DNA of 43,081 bases from NCBI GenBank assembly GCA_948470755.1, contig CAOKPU010000020.1:1-43081 (forward strand). The letters are read 5' to 3'. Shown in pieces: positions 22,047 to 23,314 of the stretch (within the stretch, counting starts at the first letter, position 1; each line of letters opens with the position of its first letter). A program made the translations under genes and the position numbers. The notes beneath the pieces are model-generated. The model had not been told where the DNA came from, ran no database searches, and saw only the letters and a list, made by a program, of their open reading frames with translations. The stretch comes from an uncultured Lachnospiraceae bacterium (GTDB taxonomy: Bacteria; Bacillota; Clostridia; Lachnospirales; Lachnospiraceae).

Positions 22047-22577
22047 ATGAGATATCACAACATAACCAGGGATGATATGTTAAACGGCGACGGGCTGCGT
22101 GTAGTCTTATGGGTCGCCGGTTGCTCTCATTGCTGCAAGGAATGCCATAATCCCATTACATGGGATCCGGACGGCGGGCTTCCGTTTGATGAAAAGGCAA
22201 AAAAAGAAATTTTTGACCAACTGGATAAGCCCTATATATCAGGGATTACATTCTCCGGCGGCGATCCCCTTCATGCGGCTAACCGTATGGAGGTGCGCAG
22301 CCTGATGGCGGAGATCAAAGAAAAGTATCCTGGCAAAACGATTTGGCTTTATACCGGGGATTTATGGGAAAATATATCCCATTCTTCTATGATGCGGTAT
22401 GTTGACGTCCTGGTGGACGGTGAGTTTCAGGCGGAATTAAAAGATGCAAAACTTTTGTGGAAGGGGAGCAGGAATCAAAGAGTGATTGATGTGCAAAAAT
22501 CTCTGCAATTAAAAGAAAGCGGTGCTTTTATACTGCACTGCGGAGATTATTCCGCACGGCCGGATGAGACTGACTGA
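22047..22577 (+). CDS. nrdG: Anaerobic ribonucleotide reductase activating enzyme
   Basis: A radical SAM enzyme that installs the glycyl radical on NrdD. The [4Fe-4S] motif C-x3-C-x2-C is in AGCSHCCKECHNP (near residues 25-36), and the SAM-binding TFSGGDPL lies near 70-77. At 176 residues it is slightly longer than the E. coli protein (154). It begins 2 bases after the nrdD stop, so expression must be tied. It is followed by the long structured gap at 22578-22879, and its last bases contribute one arm of the first hairpin there. Confidence 0.95.
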   Translation: MRYHNITRDDMLNGDGLRVVLWVAGCSHCCKECHNPITWDPDGGLPFDEKAKKEIFDQLDKPYISGITFSGGDPLHAANRMEVRSLMAEIKEKYPGKTIWLYTGDLWENISHSSMMRYVDVLVDGEFQAELKDAKLLWKGSRNQRVIDVQKSLQLKESGAFILHCGDYSARPDETD

Positions 22578-22830
22578 GTCAATCGCCGCATAAAGGCGAC
22601 GGTCAGTCAACAACCCCGATACAGGCATACAGGGCATTAGGCAAGCGACGATGCAGGGCATAATACATCTTCGATGTGTAGGGATATGGCCCTTGCGGCA
22701 GTCGTCAAATGCCTGCAAGGAGCCGCTTGCCCCGTTGCTTGCGGGAATCGATATCGCCGTTGAGAGCTGAATGCAAAAAGCCTGTCCGACTGCTGCTGAT
22801 CCGACAGTCTTGGTTAAAAACCGATACAAA
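22568..22830. other. Highly structured, non-coding element between nrdG and dut
   Basis: The 302-base gap holds no credible gene but much potential structure. GACTGAC/GTCAGTC (22568-22574/22602-22608) encloses TCGCC/GGCGA (22583-22587/22595-22599). A rod-like hairpin runs from CAGGCAT (22622-22628) to ATGCCTG (22709-22715), with inner pairs GACGA/TCGTC, GCAGGGC/GCCCTTGC and TACATC/GATGTG. GCAAG/CTTGC (22715-22719/22726-22730), CCCG/CGGG (22731-22734/22742-22745) and GACTG/CAGTC (near 22788-22808) follow. CAGGGCAT occurs twice (22630, 22654). G+C reaches about 62% at 22681-22740. It could be an unrecognised structured RNA, a leader of dut, or a decayed mobile repeat; it matches no class I recognise. 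Confidence 0.5.
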
Positions 22831-22879
22831 AGAGCGGCAGCCTGGTTCATGGCCGGGCGGATCAAAGAGGAGATGGAAC

Positions 22880-23314
22880 GTGAAGAAAATCAAGATAAAA
22901 TATTTTACGGAAGAAATAGAAAAATTGACATATATAGGCGGCAGATCGGATTGGATCGATCTGCGGGCGGCGGAAAGCGTGGATATGAAAAGCGGGGAAT
23001 TTAAACTGATCCCGTTAGGGGTGGCGATGGAGCTTCCGGAAGGATATGAGGCCCATATTGTACCACGGAGCAGTACATTTAAGAATTTTGGAATCATTCA
23101 GACGAATCATCAGGGCGTGATTGATTCTTCTTATTGCGGTGATGATGACCAGTGGTTTATGCCGGCTTATGCTTTAAGGGATACGCATATTGAAAAAAAC
23201 GACAGAATTTGCCAATTCCGTATTATGGAAAACCAGCCGGAGCTGGTATTTGACGAGGTGGATTTTTTAAAAGGAGAAAACAGGGGCGGTTTTGGAAGCA
23301 CCGGGAAAAACTAA
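22880..23314 (+). CDS. dut: dUTP diphosphatase (trimeric type)
   Basis: It hydrolyses dUTP to dUMP, keeping uracil out of DNA and supplying the dTMP route. All five trimeric dUTPase motifs are seen in 144 residues: IDLRA near 29, [10 protein letters not shown] near 63, GVIDSSYCG near 81 with the catalytic aspartate, DRICQFRI near 111, and RGGFGSTGK at the end. Motif III continues as GDDDQW rather than the common GEI form. The start is GTG at 22880 with GAGGAG upstream; an open frame reaching to 22709 runs through structured sequence and is not believed. Its position after nrdDG makes functional sense: dNTP supply and clean-up. Confidence 0.9.

Follow-up and report, generated by a model that had tools for sequence, protein, structure and literature searches.

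A decayed copy of a dispersed, probably IS200/IS605-like mini-transposon between nrdG and dut of an uncultured Lachnospiraceae bacterium

The window, the whole 43,081-nucleotide stretch analysed here, belongs to contig CAOKPU010000020.1 of an uncultured Lachnospiraceae bacterium. In this window, nrdG and dut were found to be separated by 302 bases, from the nrdG stop codon at 22577 to the GTG start codon of dut at 22880 (Table 1). A match to dut was found in 13 of the 15 other genomes of the genus. When positions 22560-22880 were folded as RNA, the + strand gave -118.7 kcal/mol (z -3.12, with none of 100 shuffles as good) and the - strand gave z -1.37 (8 of 100 shuffles as good). The structured, non-coding stretch proposed in the original prediction was therefore recovered, and so was its rod-like hairpin at 22622-22715, the segment 22618-22719 folding at -33.9 (z -2.53, 2 of 200 shuffles as good). 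A local rise in G+C was present, with a maximum of 57% in 100-base windows and not the 62% first reported, and the 8-base direct repeat CCGATACA was present at 22616 and 22821, with no larger unit seen around it. Upstream of its start codon, the dut frame has no stop codon as far as an ATG at 22709, which lies within the decayed element. Because the sequence of relatives has the dut start at the equivalent of 22880, positions 22709-22879 were not counted as coding. Automatic annotation may add a false N-terminal extension to dut at this open frame.

Table 1. Features of the nrdG-dut region, in coordinates of the window
Feature	Position	Strand	Basis and remarks
nrdG, anaerobic ribonucleotide reductase activating protein	22047..22577	+	ORF; upstream neighbour; PF13353 Fer4_12 is the best Pfam match (E 1.6e-47); name from the original prediction and context
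Separate hairpin	22567..22608		Overlaps the nrdG stop codon; outside the repeat family; fold z -5.15
Mobile repeat, decayed long-form copy (~141 bases)	22605..22745	- (transposon orientation)	Similarity to own-genome copies
Domain 1, right end (RE)	22605..22689	-	Palindrome family ending ..TTGACT; aligned with other copies
Domain 2, left end (LE), decayed	22690..22745	-	CCCGCGAGCAACGAGCCAAG, variable hairpin, ATTTGGCGACTGCCGCGAGGG; BLAST-found copies aligned
Former target flank TCGATT	22746..22751	-	Compared with family TTTATT or TTGATT; flank profile, own-genome flanks and empty site
Remainder of the gap	22752..22879		No excess structure; outside the repeat family
dut (dUTPase)	22880..23314	+	Downstream neighbour; PF00692 (E 6e-12)

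No Rfam family matched the window at its gathering score. Three sub-threshold matches were obtained for 22400-23000 at E<=10, none of them overlapping 22605-22745. Eight loci holding other copies of the repeat described below gave no Rfam match, and one canonical copy gave three matches that were far below the gathering score. The coherent unit of the gap is 22605-22745, and the remaining bases do not belong to it. In most full-length matches the repeated stretch starts at query position 46, which corresponds to 22605. The hairpin at 22567-22608 was not recognised when the shorter nrdG-dut gaps of the relatives were looked at by eye. On the other side of the repeat, 22750-22879 folded no better than chance (z -0.20), and 22752-22879 had only short, weak matches elsewhere.

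When 22560-22880 was used as the query in a genome-wide search, significant matches elsewhere were found only for approximately 22605-22750. The three longest own-genome matches were 83%, 86% and 80% identical over 129-148 query bases, the first two values being those of the two best other copies, and partial matches were present too. With the copy of a relative as query, the own genome yielded 27 matches at E<=0.01, including the window copy and two copies that were counted as two pieces each, and 41 matches at E<=10, the weakest of which were at chance level. Neither own-genome search gave a second match in the window. Across 16 genus genomes, the number of matches at E<=0.01 was 20 to 45 in eight genomes, 1 to 4 in G005, G009, G014 and G015, and zero in G007, G008, G011 and G012; the counts for G001, G002, G003, G006 and G010 are lower bounds, 40 of their 48-117 candidates having been scored. 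The best full copies in G006 were 93-98% like the query copy, indicating recent activity in that genome.

Beyond the genus, 69 of 299 genomes of the family, sampled at one per genus with the own genome included, matched at E<=1e-6; at most two candidates per genome were scored, so that this survey counts genomes and not copies. A pattern scan of named genomes gave at least 120 stretches. Among the 80 matches listed, 64 were named as Lachnospiraceae or carried a genus name that we take to belong there, and the other 16 carried broader or other labels, including Muribaculaceae, Gastranaerophilales, Oscillospiraceae and Clostridiaceae bins. Two IMG/VR contigs (L230 and L231) held an exact pattern match; these contigs are classed as viral and are perhaps prophage flanks or phage-borne copies. 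Neither the window copy nor a canonical copy gave a match at E 1e-5 when used as a query against phage and plasmid collections.

In the 13 genus relatives whose dut locus was compared (14 loci), no copy of the element was found in the interval from nrdG to dut. The distance between the two genes was -14 to 155 bases in 12 relatives (G011 was not readable and was left out) compared to 308 bases here by the same measure. Similarly, the flanks of one G006 copy lay about 320-335 bases apart, of which the element makes up ~149, and were 13-97 bases apart in all nine genus relatives that matched both sides. The flanks of these empty sites were too diverged for exact junctions, and presence or absence alone is clear from them; the pair L231 and L131 was too diverged for an empty-site reading. 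The dispersed copies, together with the absence at the locus in relatives, indicate a mobile element and not a conserved RNA of the operon.

The orientation of the neighbouring genes was determined around 94 copies with a crude ORF finder. Twenty-one copies lay in an ORF call, and the 73 classed as intergenic comprised 25 '<E<' and 24 '>E>' co-directional, 15 divergent and 9 convergent cases. An RNA of the nrd-dut operon, either cis-regulatory or stand-alone, as first proposed with a link to dNTP metabolism, would fit the strong structure, the compensatory changes and the strand-biased folding of the repeat. In contrast, its absence from the locus in 13 relatives, its copies elsewhere in the genome, the even split between the two co-directional arrangements and the lack of an Rfam match all speak against such an RNA. 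This reading is largely refuted by the empty loci and the dispersed copies, and we give it hardly any credence. Absence from the locus in close relatives had itself been named in the original prediction as a refuting outcome, and it was observed. It was the second option of that prediction, a decayed mobile element, that was supported.

For the family as a whole, 124 distinct cores were gathered, with the right end in reach in 115 and a clear left end in 82, and the ends of the repeat are sharp. Read in the - orientation, TTTATT is followed by domain 2, composed of CCCGCGAGCAACGAGCCAAG, a variable hairpin and ATTTGGCGACTGCCGCGAGGG, and then by domain 1, which runs from TCAAATACCCCG to CGGGGTATTTGA(C/T)T at the right terminus. 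Domain 1 occurs as a simple 36-base hairpin or as a longer form with inner hairpins, and minimal copies of 53 bases consist of the two ends alone. The window copy has the long form, with an inner ATACATC/GATGTGT hairpin. Its hairpins are partly broken, which we take to be why stacked, irregular helices had been described there. We infer that the copy between nrdG and dut is a passive, old and decayed insertion in an intergenic gap.

Pairing in the subterminal hairpin at each end was counted on ungapped alignments of 48 distinct sequences among the 55 domain 2 copies of the commonest length (of 115) and of 21 simple domain 1 copies. Approximately the same proportion of cells was paired in the two hairpins (92.7% and 92.6%). 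Two-sided changes were found in 80 cells of domain 2 and 22 cells of domain 1, compared to 29.6 and 5.7 in shuffled alignments, respectively, and in neither hairpin did any of 500 shuffles score as high. Shifting the pairing partners abolished the covariation signal in both. A further measure for domain 2, that of further pair types, was not above the shuffles (17 compared to 18.2). The compensatory changes of domain 2 all lay in the upper, variable hairpin; the copies had been gathered with a 20-base domain 2 pattern, which by design fixes 19 of the 27 invariant columns of the domain and leaves its right arm no room to vary. Another set, of 48 distinct genus stretches, was collected by BLAST, and in it the lower stem of domain 2 paired in 666 of 720 cells and showed no clear compensatory change. 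Covarying base pairs, which had been suggested as a check on the original prediction, therefore do exist, but among dispersed copies, and as such they speak for recognition of the hairpins as much as for an RNA.

Two further observations concern domain 2. The inner-loop columns 18 and 55 were C/C in 29, T/A in 16 and otherwise occupied in 3 of 48 copies, a joint change that may reflect a non-canonical contact or a lineage effect. In L196, L225, L163 and L230 domain 2 was the same, but its partner was a domain 1 palindrome of unrelated sequence (..GTGCTGAGCAAGCGCCACTGGCGCTTAGCACC and variants), which suggests module exchange.

The two strands differed in folding. The - strand of L165 gave z -7.75 compared to -4.55 for the + strand, and the values for L119, in which domain 1 is partly cut, were -2.24 and -1.00, respectively. 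Mispairs on the - strand were G-T in 28 and A-C in 7 cases in domain 1. In domain 2 the numbers were 65 and 39, with 41 contributed by one pair and 33 by its neighbour, and in the genus stretches they were 61 and 29, with 38 of the G-T mispairs coming from one pair. Domain 1 thus provides fair evidence for the strand, and domain 2 weak evidence. A repeat kept and spread through a function of its RNA (in processing, in protecting 3' ends or as a trans-acting RNA), and not by transposition, would agree with the covariation in both hairpins and with the conservation of domain 2 stretches in the BLAST-gathered genus copies too. Such a function would sit less well with the lack of a gene-orientation bias, with the 21 of 94 copies in an ORF call and with the lack of a match in 4 of 16 genomes of the same genus, and we regard it as very improbable.

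The flanks were compared in the 82 copies with a clear left end. On the + strand, GGGAAT was followed by A, A and A in 90, 98 and 86% of 81 copies, respectively, which on the - strand corresponds to TTT ahead of ATT and CCC, with the junction between the last two. No shared flank of at least 5 bases was found at any of 40 placements. A 3-base flank match occurred in 5 of 82 copies at one placement, compared to 1.4 expected, and was near expectation at the others. Many copies elsewhere with flanking target duplications had been named as the mark of a mobile repeat; the copies were found and the duplications were not, and their lack fits a single-strand (HUH) transposon. Two apparent duplications were seen by eye in genus copies outside the 82, GGGGA at L004 and ATCCTA at L009. 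These two cases, the high copy number, the short and modular build and the 53-base deleted versions with the two ends alone would suit a terminal-repeat MITE of a DDE transposase, of the BOX, ERIC or bcr1 kind. We nevertheless consider a MITE highly improbable, given that the 82 copies share no such flank and that the ends are two different hairpins and not plain inverted copies of each other.

One copy, in Blautia parvula, sits inside an IS200-like tnpA gene that has uninterrupted homologues for comparison; the closed genome of this species gave a single match. The filled site reads CAGCTTCA on the left, the element from AATCAAATACC to CTCGCGGG, and AATAAATGGACTG on the right. The empty site in L258 reads CATTCAAATAAATGAACAG, and the letters TTTATT are uninterrupted there. 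L279 and L255 also align across the site without the element, with three bases differing after TTCAAA, and L254 aligned poorly. The junction is exact but for a 3-base ambiguity (AAT). Of the 82 copies, 59 have AGT and 18 have AAT as the corresponding left-end bases, indicating that AAT is not a general 3-base duplication. These findings fit insertion directly 3' of TTTATT; this is the one usable empty site, its homologues are all diverged and the TTTATT letters are found in L258 only, so that the conserved flank could partly be element. Own-genome copies had two flank types, TTTATT and TTTGATT, which appear to track element sub-types.

An element whose active strand lies on the lagging-strand template is expected to have a particular orientation to replication, on the assumption that the leading strand is G-rich. 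The - strand was the G-rich strand in 63 of 98 elements at loci of at least 7 kb (sign test p 0.006, Wilcoxon 0.012), as judged from local GC skew, with several loci coming from one genome and hence not fully independent. For IS608 and ISDra2, the active strand has been placed on the lagging-strand template (PMC6006769). By analogy, the excess of G-rich - strands would be in the direction expected if the active strand of the present element lay on that template.

Candidate partners were sought among Y1 transposases. One clade of Y1_Tnp (PF01797) proteins of about 154 aa was defined by eight loci with at least 65% identity to L239 (L239 included) and two fragments. It was present in G004 (fragment), G005, G010, G013, G015, G067, G068 (fragment), G301 and G339; the TnpA of L242 and L249 carries a stop and that of L293 is truncated. 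In L252, L253 and L257, the sequence after tnpA runs to TGCTTGCACCGGGGTAGTTGATT, beyond which similarity is lost, and this point marks the right terminus; the right ends of L249 and L293 are alike (GGGGTAGTTGAAT and GGGATAGTTGATT). Altogether the right terminus was found in 5 of the 10 clade loci; L239 has the hairpin without the terminus, L242 has a weak form, L240 is cut by the contig end, and the fragment L244 and L250 are without a terminus. Ahead of tnpA, TTGAAT occurs in 5 of the 10 loci and TTTAAT in one, followed by GGGTACATTCCCCG or GGGTCTAATTCCCCG; TTGAAT is absent from L239, L242 and L250, and L253 is cut.

Domain 1 of the element was identical to the right end of this clade at 19 of 21 positions in the three loci tested. 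It matched the left end of L293 at 23 of 26 positions and that of L252 over 22 positions with one gap, and for each of these comparisons none of 2000 block shuffles was as good. From this likeness, domain 1 would appear to be one end of an IS of the clade, or an end pair with an internal deletion, although the resemblance to the two ends could partly be due to selection for similar hairpins. Domain 2 was not found at IS200 ends when 80 Y1 loci were scanned, the sole exception being a match with four errors approximately 830 bases downstream of the Y1 gene in L309, where a domain-2-like hairpin stands by itself at positions 2540-2760. None of the 80 loci showed a Y1 gene bordered by the entire element, and a long autonomous copy, its two ends enclosing a gene, was not found in 122 loci of up to 14 kb. 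L220 was considered as an autonomous copy and rejected; the locus combines a complete copy with an unrelated frame of 564 aa and a second, decayed hairpin.

The distribution of the enzyme and that of the element were compared. G067 and G301, the two family genomes with an intact close TnpA, both carry the element, with 30 and 66 candidates, respectively, and no match to the element was found in the fragment-bearing G068. Carriers with the close clade were G010, G013, G067, G301 and G339. A Y1_Tnp was found in 13 of 21 named carriers and in none of the other 8, and the own genome (G000), G001 and G006 gave no Y1_Tnp match. Conversely, G007, G008, G011 and G012 have Y1 genes and no match to the element, and a simple correlation between copy number and Y1_Tnp was not seen. 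Multi-copy IS genes can be lost from draft assemblies, and a copy may persist after its enzyme has gone; the missing Y1 is still the main gap in the argument.

The several carrier genomes without a Y1 gene, and the failure to find domain 2 at IS200 ends, would be explained if mobility depended on a different enzyme, one that makes no target duplication, such as a Y2/IS91-like HUH enzyme or an IS110/IS607-type recombinase, the likeness of domain 1 to IS200 then being convergent. Such convergence would have to extend to both halves of domain 1, which resemble both IS200 ends in position and in sequence, and to flanks of one style, TTGAAT for the IS and TTTATT or TTGATT for the element. Another enzyme is thus unlikely, although we give it some weight.

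The findings are best explained by a non-autonomous, single-strand-DNA mini-transposon that is IS200/IS605-like (PATE/REP-like), of which the copy between nrdG and dut would be old and decayed. We consider this reading probable. Membership in the IS200/IS605 group itself is likely but not proven, and our confidence is held down by the target motif, which rests on one homologue, and by the lack of covariation in the lower stem of domain 2. In the proposed mechanism, a Y1 (HUH) TnpA supplied in trans would bind both hairpins on one strand, and its cuts would directly follow the TT(T/G)ATT flank on the left and TTTGA(C/T)T on the right. The element would then leave as a single-stranded circle and re-insert 3' of a new TT(T/G)ATT, probably in the lagging-strand template. 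A broader and rather doubtful idea is that of a family-wide, two-part single-strand transposon, in which domain 2, as a conserved and structured module with a hypervariable hairpin tip, would serve as a portable left end or targeting module on two unrelated types of domain 1, served by several unrelated Y1 transposases and persisting in genomes without one of their own.

An earlier description of the repeat was not found in Rfam or in the openly accessible literature searched, and it appears to represent a mini-transposon family that is common among gut Lachnospiraceae and has not been described before. A tempting, riboswitch-like reading of the nrdG-dut gap is thereby replaced by a mobile element. 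Repeats of this kind can change the ends of genes and the gaps between them, mislead the annotation of RNAs and operons, and serve as strain markers. Together with its partner IS clade, the element would offer a testable case in Firmicutes of single-strand DNA elements mobilised in trans.

Among known systems, BOX- and bcr1-type repeats of Firmicutes are, like the present element, modular, structured, mobile, intergenic and present in many copies; bcr1 carries a target duplication, and the sequences of both probably differ from that of the element. The IS200 clade of L239, L252 and L253 is similar to the element in that its right-end hairpin and terminus CGGGGTAGTTGATT, and the left-end core GAGGGTCTAATTCCCCGCTGCTTGCA of L293, resemble domain 1. 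It differs in carrying tnpA, in the flank TTGAAT instead of TTTATT and in that domain 2 was not found there. REP and REPIN sequences with their RAYT (TnpA-REP) transposases resemble the element in having dozens of mostly intergenic, palindromic copies per genome with variable tips and with deleted and solo forms; a difference is that a flanking transposase gene of the RAYT kind was not seen with the whole element among the 80 Y1 loci. The GTAG or CGTC foot of REP sequences was not seen by inspection in the consensus or the aligned copies, and GTAG/CGTC repeats are reported from other phyla in a survey whose main text mentions neither 'Firmicutes' nor 'Clostridi' (PMC3733652). Palindrome-associated transposable elements (PATEs) are described in one account as derivatives of IS200/IS605 elements that consist of the ends only and are often moved by a trans-acting transposase (PMC7290912). 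Unlike in PATEs, the candidate autonomous IS was not found to carry the left domain of the present element at its ends, and the element also differs from them in forming one family across many genera of Lachnospiraceae. As far as that account goes, the element shares with PATEs its short, gene-less build, its hairpin ends, the apparent lack of a target duplication and, judging by one empty site, a possible insertion 3' of a short motif.
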